The translations under genes and the position numbers were made by a program. Source: Gammaproteobacteria bacterium Ga0077554 (GTDB lineage Bacteria > Pseudomonadota > Gammaproteobacteria > Ga0077554 > Ga007554). From it: a DNA stretch of 48,396 bases. Of this stretch, positions 24,083-35,259 are shown piece by piece (positions within the stretch are counted from its first letter, which is position 1; the number at the start of each line of letters is the position of its first letter). The DNA lies in contig LNFF01000027.1 of the NCBI GenBank assembly GCA_001464585.1, positions 1 through 48,396 on the forward strand. The letters are read 5' to 3'. The notes beneath the pieces were generated by a model. It saw only the letters and a list, made by a program, of their open reading frames with translations, was not told the origin of the DNA and made no database searches.

Positions 24083-24142
24083 TGTCATCCCGAACGAAGT
24101 GAGGGATCTTGCTGAAGATCCCTCACTTCGTTCGGGATGACA
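24083..24142. repeat. Dispersed palindrome, copy 3, perfect 28-bp arms
   Basis: Bases 24083-24110 and 24115-24142 are perfect inverted repeats with a 4-base loop (GCTG), starting TGTCATCCCGAACG. This is the most regular member of the family. It follows ccmI directly. Confidence 0.9.
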
Positions 24143-24145
24143 TAG

Positions 24146-24177
24146 AAAATCCCCGCAGCAAATTCCGGGGATTTTTA
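24146..24177 (+). terminator. Terminator-like hairpin after the ccm operon
   Basis: AAAATCCCCG (24146-24155) pairs with CGGGGATTTT (24166-24175), then T-rich DNA to 24177. With the palindrome just before it, this is the likely transcription end of the ccm operon. It lies 28 bp before the next gene, so some read-through is possible. Confidence 0.65.
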
Positions 24178-24204
24178 TTCCCCGTTTTTAGGAGTTTGAA
24201 CCTT

Positions 24205-24765
24205 ATGCTGCGGCTTGGGATGTTTCTTGTGCCGTTGCTGTTGTGGGGCTGCGAAGCCAGCACGGGGGTTGGCAATAACGCCCAGCCATCCGCCTTAACC
24301 GTGGGGCACGTCGTACCTGATGTTACCTTGACCGGGCTGGACGGTAGCAAAACGACACTTGCGGCTTACCGTGGTAAACTGGTAGTGCTCAATACCTGGG
24401 CGACGTGGTGTCCGCCGTGCCGGCGCGAAATGCCCAGCCTGGAGCGTTTGAGCAAGGCGCTGGATGCCGGGCATTTTGCCGTGCTGGGGGTGTCGGTAGA
24501 CGAACATGAGCTTGGCGTACGTGAATATCTCAATGACAAGGCGGTGACATTCGCGGCCTTTATTGATAAAGATCTTAAGGTGGTGCACGATACCCTGGGC
24601 ATCAAGATTTACCCCACCACATTGTTGATCGCGCCCAATGGTACGCTCATCGGCGTAATGGTGGGGCCGCGCGACTGGGACAGCCCGGCAATGATCCGGT
24701 TGCTGGAAAATGCCTGGCAAGGCACGCCAGTAAATGTAGACGCCATTCCTGTGAGCCGCTTCTAG
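24205..24765 (+). CDS. TlpA/ResA-like thioredoxin lipoprotein
   Basis: A 186-residue envelope thiol reductant. The lipobox 'LLLWGC' places Cys16 as the lipidated residue, followed by a TlpA-like domain with 'VLNTWATWCPPCRREMPSL' (C69xxC72) and 'GIKIYPTTLLIAPNGTLIGVMVGPRDW' with the cis-Pro. I start it at 24205, where AGGAG at 24190-24194 precedes; the longer open frame upstream is only the palindromic repeat and terminator. Its position suggests reduction of cytochrome cysteines beyond CcmG, but that is inference. Confidence 0.88.
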   Translation: MLRLGMFLVPLLLWGCEASTGVGNNAQPSALTVGHVVPDVTLTGLDGSKTTLAAYRGKLVVLNTWATWCPPCRREMPSLERLSKALDAGHFAVLGVSVDEHELGVREYLNDKAVTFAAFIDKDLKVVHDTLGIKIYPTTLLIAPNGTLIGVMVGPRDWDSPAMIRLLENAWQGTPVNVDAIPVSRF

Positions 24766-24818
24766 TCATCCGTTTCACAGATGTGTGTCATCCCGACCGC
24801 TCAGACGCTCAGATCAAC

Positions 24819-24878
24819 TGTCATCCCGAACGAAGAGAGGGATCTTTATAAGATCTCTCACGTTCGTTCGGGATGACA
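24819..24878. repeat. Dispersed palindrome, TCATTTCGAG family, copy 4
   Basis: The left end TGTCATCCCGAACGAAG and the matching right end ending CTTTCGGGATGACA-like (exact: TTCGTTCGGGATGACA) enclose 'GGGATCTTTATAAGATCTC'. Arms are near-perfect with a TATA loop. It precedes the monohaem cytochrome gene by about 85 bp. Confidence 0.8.
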
Positions 24879-24963
24879 ACTTTTTTCCGGTCGAGATGAC
24901 AATGGATCTGACCTTTTGCCCTTTTAATATAAGATAATACAAGACCGTAACAGGAGAACTACC

Positions 24964-25278
24964 ATGCTGCGACGTTACTTATCCACGACCTTGATCACCA
25001 CTGCGCTGCTGTTGGGAAACACAGCGGTAGCGTATGCCGCTGACCCAGGTAATGGCGCGAAGATTTATGCCACGCATTGTTCGGGGTGCCATGGTGACGG
25101 TGGCGTGAGCAATATGCCGGGTACTCCGGATTTTTCACGCCGTGAGCGGCTGTTTCAGCCGGACATGGTGCTGCTGGGGAGTATCCGCGATGGCACGGGC
25201 GTGATGCCCGCGTATAAAGGCCTGCTGAGCGACCAGGAAATGCTGGATGTGATTTCTTATTTGAGAACCTTGCGCTGA
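24964..25278 (+). CDS. Small class I cytochrome c
   Basis: A 104-residue periplasmic monohaem cytochrome. The signal peptide runs to 'AVAYA' (about residue 25). The haem motif is C39-S-G-C42-H43 ('CSGCHGDGG'), and Met81 in 'DGTGVMPAYKGLLS' is the expected distal ligand. 'EMLDVISYLRTL' is the usual C-terminal helix. AGGAG lies just before the ATG. Its stop overlaps the start of the first propeller gene by one base, so the two are translationally coupled. Confidence 0.93.
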   Translation: MLRRYLSTTLITTALLLGNTAVAYAADPGNGAKIYATHCSGCHGDGGVSNMPGTPDFSRRERLFQPDMVLLGSIRDGTGVMPAYKGLLSDQEMLDVISYLRTLR

Positions 25279-26468
25279 TGCTGGTTTTTTCCCGGCTTGG
25301 AGTCGTGTCTTCGGGCATTGTTTTGTGCATGGCATTGGCCATTTCCGCGTGTTCCGACGCAAAAGAAACCTCGCCTGCCGCCAAGCCGGCGGCGCCAGCG
25401 GCCCTTAAAGATTCCTTGCGCGTGCTGGAAACCTTTGGCGTGGGTGAAGGGGTGTATGTGCGTGCTCTGGAGGTTGAGCCAGCCAAAAACAGTATGTGGG
25501 TGGCGACCTCAATGGGTGTGCATGAGGTGGATTTAACGACGCGTGATGTGCGCAATACCTTTACCCGCGAAGATGGGCTGGCGAATGAATATGCCTTTGA
25601 CATTATGGTCGACAGTCGCGGCAATAAATGGTTTGGCACCAACGGCGGTGGCGCGTCACGCTACCGTGACGGCAAGTGGAAAACATTTTTTCCAATGCAT
25701 GGGCTGGCGGATTACTGGGTGTATTCGTTTGGTGAACAGCGCGATGGTACAGTGTGGATCGGCACCTGGTATGGCGTTACTCGGGTGGATGCCAGTACCG
25801 GCAAGTTTGATACCTATGTCAAAGAGTTGGTCAATGAATGGGTGTATGGCATTGGCATAGATGCGCAAGAGCGGGTGTGGTTCGGCACTGAAGGTGGCGT
25901 GTCCATGTTCGATGGCAAAACCTGGCAGGCCTGGACGCATAAAGAAGGGTTGGGCGCGCCCAACCTCGATAATCTGCCCGCCAGCCCCAATACCGGGTTA
26001 GGTACGCGTTCGCGGCATGATCTGGGTGTGTTGATGGATGGTAAGCCCACCTACAATCCGAATTATGTGTTTTGCATCCATGTCAGCGCTGCCGCCGCCG
26101 CTAATAACAATTCTGGCGCCGTGTGGGCCGGGACGTGGGGCGGCGGCGTGAGCCGTTTTGATGGCAAGCGGTGGACAAACTACACCGTCAAAGATGGTCT
26201 GGCGAGTAATATGGTATTCAGCATCGCCGAGGATAAACAGGGTGTATTATGGTTTGGTACGGATCAGGGTTTGACGCGTTATGATGGCAAGACCTGGCGC
26301 ACCTTTACGCGGCGTGATGGTTTGTTTAACGATGGCGTGTATGCTGTCAAGATTGCCCCCAACGGTGATGTATGGGTGGGAACGCGCGGTGGGGTGGCGC
26401 GTATCGGCCTGCCTGATAAAGCTACCGGTGCCGATAATATAAAGGTGCCGACACCGGCAGTGCCGTGA
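25278..26468 (+). CDS. Reg_prop-type beta-propeller lipoprotein
   Basis: A 396-residue protein with a lipobox 'LAISAC' (Cys25), then repeated blades of the two-component-regulator propeller type. Examples are 'NSMWVATSMGVHEVDLTTRDV', 'NKWFGTNGGGASRYRDGKWKTF', 'TVWIGTWYGVTRVDASTGKF', 'VWFGTEGGVSMFDGKTW' and 'VLWFGTDQGLTRYDGKTWRTF'. Unlike the sensor kinases that usually carry this domain, there is no membrane or kinase part, so it is a stand-alone envelope propeller. It is coupled to the cytochrome gene and followed 9 bp later by a paralogue. Confidence 0.88.
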   Translation: MLVFSRLGVVSSGIVLCMALAISACSDAKETSPAAKPAAPAALKDSLRVLETFGVGEGVYVRALEVEPAKNSMWVATSMGVHEVDLTTRDVRNTFTREDGLANEYAFDIMVDSRGNKWFGTNGGGASRYRDGKWKTFFPMHGLADYWVYSFGEQRDGTVWIGTWYGVTRVDASTGKFDTYVKELVNEWVYGIGIDAQERVWFGTEGGVSMFDGKTWQAWTHKEGLGAPNLDNLPASPNTGLGTRSRHDLGVLMDGKPTYNPNYVFCIHVSAAAAANNNSGAVWAGTWGGGVSRFDGKRWTNYTVKDGLASNMVFSIAEDKQGVLWFGTDQGLTRYDGKTWRTFTRRDGLFNDGVYAVKIAPNGDVWVGTRGGVARIGLPDKATGADNIKVPTPAVP

Positions 26469-26477
26469 ACAGAGGTA

Positions 26478-27728
26478 ATGAACGTGAAACTGGATTATAA
26501 AGGCTGGGCTATTATCGTGCTGGCGGCAGGCGCTGTGGCAGGCGGTGGTGGTTATATGCTCGGCATGGGCCAGAAACAGTCGGGCGCATCCGTATCCAGT
26601 GCAAATGAAAGCAGCAGTGGCTCGCCCTTCCTCAATAAGGCCACCGCTGCGGCAGCATCCCCCACCCACCCCTCCATGGCGGGCGCGAAAGGTGCGGGCA
26701 ATGGCAAGTTTACCCATTTTCGCGTGGGTAACCGCAATGTCAAAGGCATGTACGCAGACGGCAACATTATGTGGATTGGTACCTCGGGCGGGGTGATTCG
26801 TTATGATGTTGAGTCCGATAACTTCAGGATTTTTGACAATAAAACCAAAGGTCTGCTATCCAACGGCATTTTTCATGTGAGCAAGCTGGGTGACAAGATC
26901 GTGGCGGGCACCTACGGCGGCGGCTTGTCGGTGTATGACCCGAAAACAGACCAGTGGAAAAATCTGAACATCCCTGACGGCCTGGCTGACCAGTTCGTCT
27001 ATGACGTGCAAAAAGTAGCGAATGGCGACGTGTGGATCGCCACCTGGTCGGGCGTGAACCGGGTGCGTGGCGGCGTGCTGGAAGACGCTTCGAAGTGGGA
27101 CACCTTCACCGTCGAGAGCACGCAGCGGGGCCTGCCGAATCCGTGGGTGTATGGGCTGGAAGAAGGCAAGAATGGCGAGATGTGGTTTGCCACTGAAGAA
27201 GGTCTGGCGCGCTATAAAGACGGTAAGTGGCAGAACTGGCAACATAAAGACGGCCTGGGCGCGCCACTCGACGCTGTAAAGGATGCGATCCAGTTTACTA
27301 ACGATCCCGCCAAGTCCTCATCGCATCACGCCCAGCAAAAGGCCGAACAAGGTTTGCAGGATGTGAATGTCGCGTATAATCCCAATTATATTATTTCACT
27401 CAAGGTTGATCGTCAGGGTGTGGTGTGGTGTGGCACCTGGGGCGGTGGTCTGGCGCGTTTTGACGGCAAAACCTGGCGCAACTTTACAACAGCAGATGGC
27501 TTGCCCGCCAATCATATCTTTATGCTGTATCTGGATCCGCAAGGCAAGCTGTGGGCCGGTACCAACCGGGGTCTGGCGCGACTGAATGATGATGGTAAAA
27601 GCTTTACCGTGATGACCACCGCCGATGGCTTGTACGCAGACAATGTGTTTTCCATGGCGAACGCAGCCGATGGCAGTTTATGGATTGGCAGCTTTGGTGG
27701 TGTGGCGCATCTGGTAGCGCAGCGGTAA
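26478..27728 (+). CDS. Second Reg_prop-type propeller, membrane-anchored
   Basis: A 416-residue paralogue of the preceding protein. An N-terminal hydrophobic segment ('WAIIVLAAGAVAGGGGYMLG') probably anchors it, followed by a Ser/Ala-rich linker and about seven blades, such as 'NIMWIGTSGGVIRYDVESDN', 'DVWIATWSGVNRVRGGVLED', 'GEMWFATEEGLARYKDGKWQNW' and 'SLWIGSFGGVAHLVAQR'. Both proteins share a long insertion before 'YNPNY', so they arose by duplication. No haem or catalytic motif is visible. Likely to work with the cytochrome; function unknown. Confidence 0.88.
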   Translation: MNVKLDYKGWAIIVLAAGAVAGGGGYMLGMGQKQSGASVSSANESSSGSPFLNKATAAAASPTHPSMAGAKGAGNGKFTHFRVGNRNVKGMYADGNIMWIGTSGGVIRYDVESDNFRIFDNKTKGLLSNGIFHVSKLGDKIVAGTYGGGLSVYDPKTDQWKNLNIPDGLADQFVYDVQKVANGDVWIATWSGVNRVRGGVLEDASKWDTFTVESTQRGLPNPWVYGLEEGKNGEMWFATEEGLARYKDGKWQNWQHKDGLGAPLDAVKDAIQFTNDPAKSSSHHAQQKAEQGLQDVNVAYNPNYIISLKVDRQGVVWCGTWGGGLARFDGKTWRNFTTADGLPANHIFMLYLDPQGKLWAGTNRGLARLNDDGKSFTVMTTADGLYADNVFSMANAADGSLWIGSFGGVAHLVAQR

Positions 27729-30490: not shown

Positions 30491-30575
30491 AATCCCCCTT
30501 GATCCCCCTTTTTCAAAGGGGGAGGTTATCATCCCTCGCCGTTCCCCCCTTTGTAAAAGGGGGGCAGGGGGGATT
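30489..30575. terminator. Double C/G-rich hairpin between convergent genes
   Basis: Two hairpins (CCCCCTTT 30504-30511 with AAAGGGGG 30515-30522; CCCCCCTTT 30544-30552 with AAAGGGGGG 30556-30564) are nested inside an outer AAATCCCCC / GGGGGGATTT pair. The outer arms give runs of A and T at both edges, so it can act as a two-way terminator. It is also a repeat of a kind common in bacterial genomes. Confidence 0.65.
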
Positions 30576-31678
30576 TACTTATCTCCCGCATACCCTTCAT
30601 ACGCCTGCAACGCGATCGGCCTGAACACATCCACTTTGCGAAAGAACTGATCCACCATGTAAATGCGCCCATCTTCATCAACATCAATACCGGCGGGTAA
30701 CATGTACTTAGCGGGCGCGCCACCCGCGCCGCGCTCGCCAATGAACATCAGCAATTGCCCCTGGCTATTAAAAATCTGAAAATTGCCAAACGCCGTGTCT
30801 ACCACATAAATATTGCCCTGCGCATCGGTGGCGATGCCTTTGGGGCTGGCAAACTGGCCGGGAAAGCGTCCGGCGCTGCCAAAGGCGCGCACAAAACTGC
30901 CATCGGGGTTAAACGCCTGAACGCGAAAATTACCTTTGTCTACTACGTAGAGCGTGCCATCGGGTGCCACGGCCGCTTGTAGCGGCATGTTGAACTCACC
31001 GTCTTTAATGCCACGTTTGCCTATCGTTTGCAGATGCGCGCCGCTTTGCGCGTCAAACACCAACACTTGATGCGCATCACTTTCCACGCCGCCAGTATCG
31101 ACGACATACGCGCGAGTGCCGTCAGGACTCACGGCCACCCCCGAGGGTCGGTTGAACAGGGTTTTGTTACCGAAGGTGCGTAAATATTTACCTTCGCTGG
31201 TATACACAAATATTTGCCGCAAGGTCATGTCGGAAACAAATACTTCGCCGAGGCTCGATACATCAATGCCCATCGGTTTGGTCAACTGGCCGGGCTTGTC
31301 TACGCCGATTTCCCTATAACGTCCGTGCGCAATATCAAATACTACCACCAGGCGCTGTGCCGTGTCGGTGACGTACACCTGGCCGCGATACGCGGCAACA
31401 CCAAACGGTTTGATGAGTCCCTTGACAGTCTTTTGCTCGCCCAAGGCAAATAGCCTGAAGCGGTCACCGCGCGTGGTGGTTTCGACGTTATCGCTGAAGC
31501 TCAAGCTGCGTTCAAAAATAAAACGCGCTGGATCCGGGGGGGAGGGGAACACCGGCGGGACAAATTCTGGTGCAGGTGGCACTGAAGCACATCCTGCCAC
31601 CACCGCCATGAATAGCAAGGGTAGCAAAGATAAAAAGCCGCGCCGCGCCGCACCCGCGCCGCTTATTTTATGTGGCAT
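30575..31678 (-). CDS. NHL-repeat lipoprotein
   Basis: A 367-residue lipoprotein (lipobox 'VVAGC', Cys30) with about six NHL blades: 'VKGLIKPFGVAAYRGQVYVTDTA', 'LTKPMGIDVSSLGEVFVSDM', 'FNRPSGVAVSPDGTRAYVVDT', 'FNMPLQAAVAPDGTLYVVDKGNFRVQAFNPDGSF', 'FASPKGIATDAQGNIYVVDTAFGNFQIFNSQGQ' and 'YMLPAGIDVDEDGRIYMVDQ'. NHL propellers bind proteins, sugars or RNA; here the envelope location suggests protein interaction. It overlaps the 3' end of the pentahaem cytochrome gene by 16 bp, so the two are coupled. Confidence 0.9.
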   Translation of the reverse strand: MPHKISGAGAARRGFLSLLPLLFMAVVAGCASVPPAPEFVPPVFPSPPDPARFIFERSLSFSDNVETTTRGDRFRLFALGEQKTVKGLIKPFGVAAYRGQVYVTDTAQRLVVVFDIAHGRYREIGVDKPGQLTKPMGIDVSSLGEVFVSDMTLRQIFVYTSEGKYLRTFGNKTLFNRPSGVAVSPDGTRAYVVDTGGVESDAHQVLVFDAQSGAHLQTIGKRGIKDGEFNMPLQAAVAPDGTLYVVDKGNFRVQAFNPDGSFVRAFGSAGRFPGQFASPKGIATDAQGNIYVVDTAFGNFQIFNSQGQLLMFIGERGAGGAPAKYMLPAGIDVDEDGRIYMVDQFFRKVDVFRPIALQAYEGYAGDK

Positions 31679-32451
31679 GTCTCACAGAGCCGGTCAGAGG
31701 TGGCGCGCAGCAGCAGGTTGATGTCGGGATCGTGTACGTTGTGGCAGGTGGCGCATTCTACTTTGCCGTCGTACAGCTTCACCCCGTTGTCAAAGCCGTA
31801 GGGGCTGTCCGGCGCCCAGAAGTCGGCGTCTTTTTGATTTAAGCCGGCGTACTGCATGGAAATGGGATGGTCATTGCGCAGGTCAGTACCGAGATGTTTG
31901 ATTTCGATGCTGTGGGCTACTTTACCGTTATGGCATTTGCCGCAGCTCATCAAATCATCGCCGCCGTTGAGGCGCACATGCAGCGCGGCGTCCTCACTGC
32001 TGTTCCAGCCATTGGGTTTGAACACCGTCATGTCCAGCGCCATCGTGCCGTCATGACACGACAGGCACAGCAAGCTGATCGGGCTGGGGGTGCGCACTTT
32101 GTTTTCCAGGCTGCGGCTGTCATACAGATTATAGCTGTCAGGATCGGGTAAAAAACGGTTCCAACTGGGGTTCCCCCCCAGTGCCGCCCCTTGTTTGATG
32201 GCGTCTTCAATGCTTTGTGCGGGGTCGGTGCCCGATGGGGTCGTTTTATCGGGTGGAATATGGCAATAGACGCACGGCGAGCCGTAGTCCGAAAAGGCCA
32301 CGCCCGACATCGCTACAACACCCGCGCGGGCATTCAAGCCCGTGAAGTCATGCTTGGTGCCTAAAATGGTGCCGCTGAGTGACGGCCCTATCCATGCGCT
32401 GTTCAGCGCCAGTGCGGCGCCAATCACAACAAACCATTTACGCTTGATCAC
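31663..32451 (-). CDS. Pentahaem c-type cytochrome
   Basis: A 262-residue periplasmic or surface cytochrome with five CxxCH sites: 'CVYCH', 'CLSCH', 'CGKCH', 'CATCH' and 'CETCH', the last only two residues from the C-terminus. Spacing and 'NDHPISMQYAG' fit the doubled-CXXCH cytochrome families common in metal-reducing and other respiring bacteria. The signal peptide is 'MIKRKWFVVIGAALALNSAW'. GTG start at 32451, preceded by GAGG. It is upstream of and overlaps the NHL lipoprotein gene. Electron donor and acceptor unknown. Confidence 0.88.
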   Translation of the reverse strand: MIKRKWFVVIGAALALNSAWIGPSLSGTILGTKHDFTGLNARAGVVAMSGVAFSDYGSPCVYCHIPPDKTTPSGTDPAQSIEDAIKQGAALGGNPSWNRFLPDPDSYNLYDSRSLENKVRTPSPISLLCLSCHDGTMALDMTVFKPNGWNSSEDAALHVRLNGGDDLMSCGKCHNGKVAHSIEIKHLGTDLRNDHPISMQYAGLNQKDADFWAPDSPYGFDNGVKLYDGKVECATCHNVHDPDINLLLRATSDRLCETCHIK

Positions 32452-32518: not shown

Positions 32519-32551
32519 TGTCATTTCGAGCGCAGCGAGAAATCTTCCGCG
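32519..32551. repeat. Dispersed palindrome, TCATTTCGAG family, half copy 6
   Basis: Only the left arm (TGTCATTTCGAGCGCAGCG and following AGAAATCTTCC) is present; no right arm is found before the MITE. It is a truncated family member. Confidence 0.6.
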
Positions 32552-32863: not shown

Positions 32864-34075
32864 ATGAGCGGTAAGTCAGGATTACAGTGGGGCATGTGGG
32901 TGCTATTGGGCGCGTTGTGCGCAGCCTCCCTTACGGCATGGTCCGCGCCTGCGCCTGACGTAGCCACCGCCCCGCAGCTTTATCAGAAATATTGCTCGGC
33001 CTGCCACGGCGAAAAGGGCAATGGGCAAAGCCGCGCCCTCGGCGCGCTCAACCCGCCACCGAAAGATTTCACCTCGGCTGCCGTGCAGCAAGAATTATCC
33101 CGCGAGCGCATGATTATCTCTGTGACGCATGGTCGCCCGGATACCGCCATGGTGGGATGGGGAAACAAGCTTTCGCCCCAGCAGATCGAAGGTATTGTGG
33201 ATTATATCCGCGCCACTTTCATGAAGCCGCACCTGCCGGTTGCGGCAGCGGCACCTGCCCCTACATCGCCTCCCGCATCACATGGCGGTGCAGTGCGTGG
33301 CGGGCCAGGTTCCAATTCGCGGCGCATCATCCCGGTCGATGCCAGCCTCGGCGAGCGCGTTTATCTCAATAATTGCGCGGTGTGCCATGGCGACAAAGGC
33401 GCGGGCGCAATGTGGACGCAGGCCTCGCTCAACCCGCCGCCACGCGATTTCACCTCAGCGCAAACCCGCCAGGAACTGACCCGCGAACGCATGATCACCT
33501 CTGTCACCTATGGCCGCCCCAACACTGCCATGATGTCATTCAGAAAGCGCCTCTCTGATGCGGAAATTGCCGCCGTGGTAGATTACGTGCGCGCCACTTT
33601 TATTGAGGGCAGCGCGAAGAACGCCACTGCCGCGCCGCCGCCGGGGCATGGCAGCGCCGCTATACAACCGGAGGCGGCACCAAAGGTTCCCGCGCCCGCG
33701 CCCATTGTTGACGCCGACATGTCGCTGCCTTTCCCCAAAGGACTGGTCGGTGACGCCGCCAAGGGCCGCGCGTTCTACATGGAAAACTGTTACGTCTGCC
33801 ACGGCAAGGCGGGGGACGGCGAAGGGCCGCGCGCCACATTCATCCGCCCCAAACCACGCAACTTCCTGCATCCCGACGCGCGCCGCACGCTGAATCGTCC
33901 CACCTTGCTCAAAGCTATTTATAACGGCAAGGTCGGCACGGTCATGCCCGCCTGGGGCAAAGTTTTGAGCGAACAGGAGATCGCCAATGTCGCGGAATTT
34001 GTGTTTCAGGGCTTTGTTAAGGGCAAAGAAACGGGCGCGAGCGGGGAGACTAAAAAAAAAATAGCCAGCCCCTGA
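32864..34075 (+). CDS. Modular cytochrome c, first part (three haem modules)
   Basis: A 403-residue ORF with signal segment 'GMWVLLGALCAASLTAWSA' and three similar modules of about 85-110 residues. Each has a CxxCH ('CSACH', 'CAVCH', 'CYVCH'), a 'PPPxDFT'-like block and a Met-containing 'DTAMVGW/NTAMMSF/GTVMPAW' distal loop. The ORF stops at 34073-34075 just after an A10 run. The -1 frame continues with a fourth module, so the product may be a truncated or a full 750-residue hexahaem protein. Start ATG at 32864. Confidence 0.9.
   Translation: MSGKSGLQWGMWVLLGALCAASLTAWSAPAPDVATAPQLYQKYCSACHGEKGNGQSRALGALNPPPKDFTSAAVQQELSRERMIISVTHGRPDTAMVGWGNKLSPQQIEGIVDYIRATFMKPHLPVAAAAPAPTSPPASHGGAVRGGPGSNSRRIIPVDASLGERVYLNNCAVCHGDKGAGAMWTQASLNPPPRDFTSAQTRQELTRERMITSVTYGRPNTAMMSFRKRLSDAEIAAVVDYVRATFIEGSAKNATAAPPPGHGSAAIQPEAAPKVPAPAPIVDADMSLPFPKGLVGDAAKGRAFYMENCYVCHGKAGDGEGPRATFIRPKPRNFLHPDARRTLNRPTLLKAIYNGKVGTVMPAWGKVLSEQEIANVAEFVFQGFVKGKETGASGETKKKIASP
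34052..34061 (+). other. A10 slippery run joining the two cytochrome frames
   Basis: Ten consecutive A residues lie at the boundary between modules 3 and 4. In the upstream frame the codons are AAA AAA AAA ATA and a stop follows four codons later. One extra A in the transcript, or a -1 ribosomal slip, puts translation into the frame that runs to 35115. A homopolymer read or assembly error would give the same picture. Confidence 0.7.
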
Positions 34076-35115
34076 GTAAAACCAAAAAAAGCGCGGGTTA
34101 TGCTGCCAATGCCACTGCGCGCAACAGCGACCCAGGTCGCGCAATCTATAACTACCGCTGCTACTTCTGCCATGGTTATGCGGGAGACGCCAAAACCGTC
34201 GCCGCCACTTACCTGTCTCCACCACCCCGCGACTTCACCACACGTAATATAGACCGGCAAAAAATGATCGCTGCCGTTACCCACGGCAGCAAAGGCAGCG
34301 CCATGATGTCCTTCAAAAGCGTGCTGAAACCGCATGAAATCGAAGCCGTGGTAGACTTTGTGCGCCAGGAGTTTATGCAGGGCGAGGCTAAAAACACCCG
34401 CTATCACACCGTCGAAAACGGTTGGCCCAGCCATGAGCGTTACCGTGCCGCGTTCCCTTTCGCCTTGGGCGAGATTGCGCTTGATACGCCGTGGGAATCG
34501 CTCACCCCTGCGCAACGCACGGGCAAGCAGCTTTTCATGTCAGGGTGCGTCACTTGTCACGAAGGCTCGCGCCGCACGCCACTCAAAGATGACCCGATGT
34601 GGGATCCGCGCGCGCTATCGTTTCCGCGCAACGGTTATTCGCACGCCGTGCAGGGGCGCACAAGTGCCGGTCGCTCCCGGCATCCTGCCTCTGGCGACAC
34701 TAGTGCATCCATGCATGTCGTGATAGGCAGGATGCCGGAAACGGCCCAGCCGCCAGCCGCCGTAGACGCCGTCACCAGCGCCAGCGTCTACGCCAAACAT
34801 GACATCCCCCCGAAACTCGCCAACCTCACCGCCCAGGAACAGCAGGGCGAAACCCTGTTCCAGCAGAATTGCGCGTTTTGCCACGCCGCAGACGGCACCG
34901 GCCGCAACTGGATCGGCAGCTTCCTGCAGCCCCCGCCGCGCAATTTAACCAGCGCCACCGCCATGCAAGGCATGACCCGCGCCCGACTCAAAAAAGTAAT
35001 CCGCGACGGTCTGCCCGGCACCACTATGTCCGCCTGGAAATCGGTATTGAATGATGGTCAGATCAACGCCGTCATCACCTACGTCTCCCGCGCTTTTCAT
35101 CAGCTGCCGGAGTAA
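34054..35115 (+). CDS. Modular cytochrome c, second part (three haem modules, -1 frame)
   Basis: This frame is open from 34054 (after TAA at 34051-34053). It encodes 'YNYRCYFCHGYAGDA' (module 4) before the first ATG at 34264, then 'CVTCH' (module 5, atypical and shorter) and 'CAFCH' (module 6) with 'QPPPRNLTSATA' and 'GTTMSAWKSVL'. There is no ATG, GTG or TTG start and no signal peptide upstream of the fourth haem site, so it cannot make a proper exported cytochrome alone. It is best read as the C-terminal half of the preceding protein. Confidence 0.85.
   Translation, partial: KKNSQPLSKTKKSAGYAANATARNSDPGRAIYNYRCYFCHGYAGDAKTVAATYLSPPPRDFTTRNIDRQKMIAAVTHGSKGSAMMSFKSVLKPHEIEAVVDFVRQEFMQGEAKNTRYHTVENGWPSHERYRAAFPFALGEIALDTPWESLTPAQRTGKQLFMSGCVTCHEGSRRTPLKDDPMWDPRALSFPRNGYSHAVQGRTSAGRSRHPASGDTSASMHVVIGRMPETAQPPAAVDAVTSASVYAKHDIPPKLANLTAQEQQGETLFQQNCAFCHAADGTGRNWIGSFLQPPPRNLTSATAMQGMTRARLKKVIRDGLPGTTMSAWKSVLNDGQINAVITYVSRAFHQLPE
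34677..34738. repeat. In-frame palindrome in the cytochrome linker
   Basis: CCGGCATCCTGCCT (34677-34690) and AGGCAGGATGCCGG (34725-34738) are perfect 14-bp inverted repeats. They lie within the coding frame between modules 5 and 6 and are translated as a Ser/Arg/Pro-rich linker. The insert does not break the frame. Confidence 0.85.
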
Positions 35116-35154: not shown

Positions 35155-35210
35155 TGTCATTCCGAGCATGGCGAGGAATCTTAAGATCCCTCACGGCGTT
35201 CGGGATGACA
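35155..35210. repeat. Dispersed palindrome, TCATTTCGAG family, copy 7
   Basis: TGTCATTCCGAGCATGGCGA at the left and 'GGCGTTCGGGATGACA' at the right surround 'GATCCCTCA'. It sits between the cytochrome and argC; the argC start lies 50 bp beyond. Confidence 0.75.
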
Positions 35211-35259
35211 GCAAACACCGCAAATGGTGACGGGATCTGCCCCAAAGAGATTGAATAGC

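Follow-up and report, generated by a model that had tools for sequence, protein, structure and literature searches.

A conserved A9/A10 tract and a putative programmed -1 frameshift joining two trihaem cytochrome halves

When two reading frames that each encode half of a multihaem cytochrome meet at a run of ten A residues, are they two proteins, one misread gene, or one gene with two products? The question is raised by a locus in the window, the whole 48,396-nucleotide stretch of DNA analysed here, which belongs to a 2.9 Mb draft genome (97% complete) of Gammaproteobacteria bacterium Ga0077554. According to the original prediction, two trihaem frames meet there at an A10 run, and slippage on this run would make a trihaem and a hexahaem protein from a single gene. 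The coordinates, the CxxCH sites and the -1 relation of the frames were all confirmed (Table 1), and the slippage reading is supported by comparison of homologous loci. In the absence of RNA or protein data, a conserved programmed -1 frameshift, whether made by the polymerase or by the ribosome, that would give trihaem A and hexahaem A-B is considered very probable indeed. Annotation would report two trihaem proteins, one of them seemingly without an export signal, where the cell probably makes one trihaem and one hexahaem cytochrome.

Table 1. Features of the cytochrome locus and of its divergent neighbours (positions in the window)
Feature	Position	Strand	Remark
NHL beta-propeller, divergent neighbour	30575..31678	-	kept beside A-B in 68 of 81 loci
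Five-CxxCH cytochrome (Paired_CXXCH), divergent neighbour	31663..32451	-	conserved beside A-B; best PDB sequence match 7tfs
ORF A, trihaem class I c-type cytochrome, secreted	32864..34075	+	ATG 32864, TGA 34073-34075, 403 aa
Likely signal peptide of A, MSGKSGLQWGMWVLLGALCAASLTAWSA	32864..32947	+	inferred from reading by eye, no dedicated predictor
Haem 1 site CSACH	32993..33007	+	CxxCH in ORF A
Haem 2 site CAVCH	33374..33388	+	CxxCH in ORF A
Haem 3 site CYVCH	33788..33802	+	CxxCH in ORF A
TAA stop of the -1 frame, at the 5' end of the run	34051..34053	+	frame switch confined to 34054-34072
A10 slippage site, frame 0 ACT AAA AAA AAA ATA	34052..34061	+	predicted site, sequence only
ORF B, second trihaem cytochrome half, -1 frame	34054..35115	+	open frame with three CxxCH
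Frame-0 stop TGA	34073..34075	+	11 nt 3' of the run
Haem 4 site CYFCH	34159..34173	+	CxxCH in ORF B
Haem 5 site CVTCH, atypical module	34546..34560	+	CxxCH in ORF B
Palindromic repeat element, in frame, haem 5-haem 6 linker of B	34677..34738		absent at the same place in the sister genome
Haem 6 site CAFCH	34870..34884	+	CxxCH in ORF B

Both halves meet the criterion for class I c-type cytochromes, CxxCH sites within class I modules (Pfam Cytochrome_CBB3/Cytochrom_C), with three stretches of A and two of B matching Cytochrome_CBB3 above cut-off. The predicted common design of the modules thus holds for most of them and fails for one in B, module 5 judging by its position, which has no Pfam match of its own. 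The module around haem 5 seems to go unrecognised by the Pfam class I models, its CxxCH is kept in nine aligned rows, and it may have a different haem-binding fold. AlphaFold2 models of both halves are of low confidence (pLDDT 57 for A and 54 for B). Mean column identity across homologues is 68% and 67% for the two halves, and a pseudogene or decayed gene was excluded because both are well conserved. Read in frame 0, the product of ORF A ends in ETKKKIASP. ORF B has its first ATG at 34264, 3' of haem 4, as had been predicted together with the lack of a signal peptide; neither ATG, GTG nor TTG occurs in it between 34054 and 34159, and no signal peptide was found before haem 4. It is outside the cytoplasm that c-type cytochromes acquire their haem. 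With no usual start and no export signal, B would therefore not arise by itself as a working cytochrome.

The two frames join in the linker that separates module 3 from module 4, at the module border where the junction had been placed. Since the -1 frame is shut by a TAA where the run begins, and frame 0 by a TGA shortly after the run, passage from one frame to the other is possible only in the tract and the next few codons. Pattern searches of the 2,912,042 bases of the genome found no other A10 or T10 run, and only 12 runs of A or T of at least nine. A run that is unique in its genome, within a layout that recurs in 56 homologous loci, is more than chance.

The palindromic repeat in B is incidental to the frameshift. 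Its core, GGCATCCTGCCTCTGGCGACACTAGTGCATCCATGCA, forms a hairpin (z -5.67) and has about 40 copies in the genome. Copies also lie inside the genes of RimO, GlgB, SufD, a NifS-type cysteine desulfurase and QueE, proteins whose identity was confirmed by family models (L002-L006, L169-L173); most encode a GRSRHPASGDTSASMH-like peptide, and some lie in other frames or orientations. The element resembles the Rickettsia palindromic elements, yet it sits in a gammaproteobacterial family. Repeats of another type (GTCATTTCGAGCGCAGCGAGAAATCT / GTCATTCCGAGC...GGGATGAC) flank the A-B locus on both sides, at 32520-32546 and 35155-35211.

The same two-frame layout was observed in each of the two genomes searched from the same genus, in four from the same family and in two distant relatives. 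All nine junctions of this set have AAA AAA AAA in frame 0, then a stop within a few codons, in an otherwise unconserved linker. A scan of named genomes, together with a class-wide search of 369 genomes, brought the sample to 107 distinct loci, most of them metagenome assemblies; two (L071, L162), cut at contig ends, were excluded from the four states into which the rest were sorted. The poly-A state (S) holds 57 loci, 49 with A9, seven with A10 and one with A8, the last of which also has a second site. Another 41 loci (T) lack A9 and provide B with a signal-like start of its own, which in some cases comes with a lipobox and often overlaps the stop of A as ATGA or GTGA. Six complete loci (U) show neither an A run nor a signal-like start on B, and in one (F, L161) A and B form a single ORF of 664 codons with six CxxCH sites. 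The proposed search of homologues for a continuous ORF thus returned only this single-ORF hexahaem protein, and instead 56 loci with a run of at least nine A. Absence of a signal-like start entered the definition of state S, and in a cross-table run and start were therefore scored separately: 56 loci have at least nine A and no signal-like start, 41 have the reverse, none has both, and eight have neither (the six U loci, the fusion L161 and the A8 locus). Across loci, the A run and a signal peptide on B are mutually exclusive, signal peptides being judged here by hydrophobicity, with no trained predictor. It had been predicted that homologues with two separately exported proteins would refute slippage. 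Such loci do exist, but they leave slippage unrefuted: none of them has the A run, and in each of them B begins with a signal-like start.

Within the poly-A state, the features around the run are equally regular. B lies in the -1 frame in all 56 scorable loci, whereas the relation is mixed in the two-gene loci (23 at -1, 11 others). The frame-0 stop lies at a median of 6 nt 3' of the run, and in 18 of the 57 loci the -1 frame stays closed until the run is reached. The run keeps to 9-10 A although the codon phase in which it lies differs between loci, and the sequence around it is otherwise a poorly conserved linker. Elsewhere in these loci, runs of at least nine A occur only three times in 542,541 bp, both strands included, and AAA makes up just 51% of the Lys codons in A and B.

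A tree of B was built (midpoint-rooted, for drawing only), on which the poly-A class is spread over many families and about five state changes account for all rows. The six U loci share an in-phase CCG GGA AAG, that is G_GGA_AAG, and cluster together (92/78) inside the poly-A class, beside three graded relatives: L108 with A9 only, L089 with A9 and a downstream CCG GGA AAG CCG TAG, and L080 with A8 and CCG GGA AAG TAG. In this sub-clade the A tract would have been swapped for a ribosomal slippery heptamer, with the outcome unchanged. The fusion L161 is sister to the A9 locus L149 (100/98), on a long branch. Nothing argues more strongly for selection on the fusion itself than this retention of a one-chain A-B outcome through different signals. 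Only four usable pairs were available for an independent-pair test, which was underpowered, and the association of A9 with loss of the signal peptide is not proven by independent contrasts; the case rests on how deeply a tract that is unstable by nature has been conserved, and on the replacement series, not on many independent origins. The ATGA or GTGA overlap at which B starts in many two-gene homologues already sets it at -1 relative to A. If B then lost its signal peptide and an A tract grew, the poly-A state would follow with no other rearrangement, a direction that is inferred. A bolder hypothesis, which remains tentative and is somewhat doubtful as a whole, is that selection repeatedly re-made the fusion (by A9, by G_GGA_AAG and by plain fusion) from a separately exported pair with an ATGA-set -1 frame, and also that polymerase slippage sets the ratio of three-haem to six-haem carriers in a tunable periplasmic or extracellular conduit.

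The explanation that accounts best for the whole, and that is regarded as highly likely, is that polymerase slippage at A9/A10 yields A and an exported A-B, that the ribosome may add to it, and that one sub-clade uses G_GGA_AAG. RNA polymerase would add one A, or drop two, in part of the transcripts. Unslipped mRNA would be read in frame 0 up to a stop, usually within 5 codons, giving secreted trihaem A, whose short tail is rich in Lys; slipped mRNA would lead straight into the -1 frame, giving a single exported hexahaem A-B that uses the signal peptide of A. The ribosome may contribute through -1 slipping on A_AAA_AAA. Slippage in the cell and the ratio of the two products are both inferred.

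A frameshift would not be needed if the homopolymer had been misread or misassembled and the locus were truly one ordinary hexahaem ORF with an A11 run, the plain alternative in the original prediction. Homopolymers are the classical place for such errors, and a natural fused ORF is known (L161). This alternative was rejected on the evidence of homologues and is left with practically no weight: the sister species G002, assembled independently, shares both A10 and the frame relation, more than 50 further, independently assembled loci combine A9/A10 with B in the -1 frame, and in six loci the -1 overlap of the two frames persists although no A run is present. A and B could also be separate proteins, with B translated alone through coupling or reinitiation as in the 41 two-gene homologues, where the overlap is typically ATGA or GTGA; moreover, coupling can mimic frameshifting. 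However, no B of the A9 class has a signal-like start (the best hydrophobicity is 1.28, against at least 1.64 in the two-gene class), the run often lies just 17-25 codons from haem 4, and a cytoplasmic B would be unable to obtain haem by the known Ccm route, all of which makes separate translation very improbable. Hardly more credible is phase variation at the DNA level, in which tract length would differ between cells and turn B on or off. Homopolymers are hypermutable, and surface or secreted genes often vary in this manner (PMC3711429), but no scorable locus departs from a tract of 9-10 A or from the -1 relation. Had the locus been switching, random sampling should have caught in-frame (ON) forms with the run, none of which was seen, and the G_GGA_AAG class, without poly-A, cannot vary in this way.

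The choice between polymerase and ribosome is less clear-cut. Slippage on A9 is established in bacteria (PMC1088944), and in E. coli reporters frameshifting reached 40% on a cassette of nine A and 10% on seven (PMC3711429). Those marks of slippage genes that sequence can show are present here: a run of about nine or more A at the frame switch, a run and a frame relation that are both kept across divergent homologues, and dispensable stimulators. An in-phase slippery heptamer is present as well, A_AAA_AAA in every A9/A10 tract and G_GGA_AAG in the sub-clade, and ribosomal slipping consequently cannot be excluded from sequence alone. If dnaX-like -1 ribosomal frameshifting on A_AAA_AAA were the main mechanism of the poly-A class, with transcripts unslipped, it would also fit a slight folding bias downstream and the move of a related sub-clade to G_GGA_AAG, which E. 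coli work places among the top three heptamers by efficiency of -1 ribosomal frameshifting (PMC4066793). Seven bases suffice for the ribosome, however, so that A_AAA_AAG alone would be expected, while the run always has 9-10 A (the one A8 having a backup site). No enrichment of an SD-like stimulator was found upstream of the run at the usual distance (5/56 versus 7% in the control), and strong downstream structure was not found in the poly-A class (mean z -0.81 versus -0.23 in the control). Ribosomal frameshifting as the main mechanism is therefore considered unlikely, without being dismissed. Because the run stays at 9-10 A with varying codon phase, bare A_AAA_AAG never takes over from it, the SD-like stimulator is unenriched and downstream folding is barely above control, RNA polymerase slippage is probably the main mechanism, as far as comparison of sequences can tell. 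The six sister loci with G_GGA_AAG look ribosomal; most have an upstream GGAG 11-14 nt away, and no conserved downstream fold or stem-loop was found in this class.

The role of A-B is inferred to be that of a periplasmic or extracellular electron conduit in two lengths. In a survey of neighbours at 81 loci, an upstream divergent Paired_CXXCH cytochrome with 4-5 haems was kept in 55. In the window, the best PDB sequence match of this neighbour is 7tfs, the Geobacter OmcE filament. Further genes near A-B (24109-27728) encode a TlpA-like thioredoxin, a monohaem cytochrome and two Reg_prop propeller proteins, and members of the same TlpA-like/monohaem/Reg_prop clusters closely follow the two-gene form at L120-L122.

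As a kind, programmed frameshifting is already known, both on A9 and on slippery heptamers. In the literature searched, which included few subscription papers and no supplements, no report of programmed frameshifting of a trihaem, hexahaem or other multihaem cytochrome was found. The main text on GeneTack names no cytochrome, and the family may still lie within its clusters. No earlier c-type, multihaem cytochrome from programmed frameshifting seems to be on record, and recoding would here serve to join two redox modules. Moreover, split, slipped, re-slipped and fused states within one family make the origin and the replacement of a recoding signal traceable in sequence.

Several known systems resemble A-B in part. 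Uet-type clusters (undecahaem electron transfer), with NHL, trihaem and tetrahaem cytochrome genes, have been described in Gallionellaceae and Tenderiales (PMC10734462), and, as at A-B, Uet/OmcE-type extracellular clusters have an NHL propeller and a 4-5-haem cytochrome next door. Membership in UetDEG was rejected, because the UetDEG trihaems are of the cytochrome C7 type (PMC10734462), whereas A and B consist of class I (Cytochrome_CBB3) modules; neither an undecahaem protein nor a porin (UetJ, UetC) was identified among the conserved neighbours of A-B. The two-gene pairs of Aromatoleum, Azoarcus, Ramlibacter, Gallionella and Magnetococcales (among them L081, L087, L052 and L100) have homologues of A and B, likewise in that order, and an ATGA overlap often puts B at -1 already, but there B has its own start and a signal peptide or lipobox, and the A run is missing. 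The lambda gpG-gpGT frameshift and those of IS type at G_GGA_AAG or A_AAA_AAG share the X_XXY_YYZ heptamer, a -1 downstream frame and a fusion product, which fits the six-locus sub-clade; in contrast to them, no conserved stimulatory stem-loop was found in the A-B family, which relies in its majority on poly-A. Thermus thermophilus dnaX, IS elements and Shigella mxiE/spa share with A-B a run of at least nine A or T, a nearby stop and two length variants (PMC1088944; PMC3711429). In contrast to the A9 slippage genes of the dnaX type, slippage here would give the longer product, joining two whole secreted haem-protein halves, and would do so in a c-type cytochrome family that also has split two-gene and fused single-ORF homologues.
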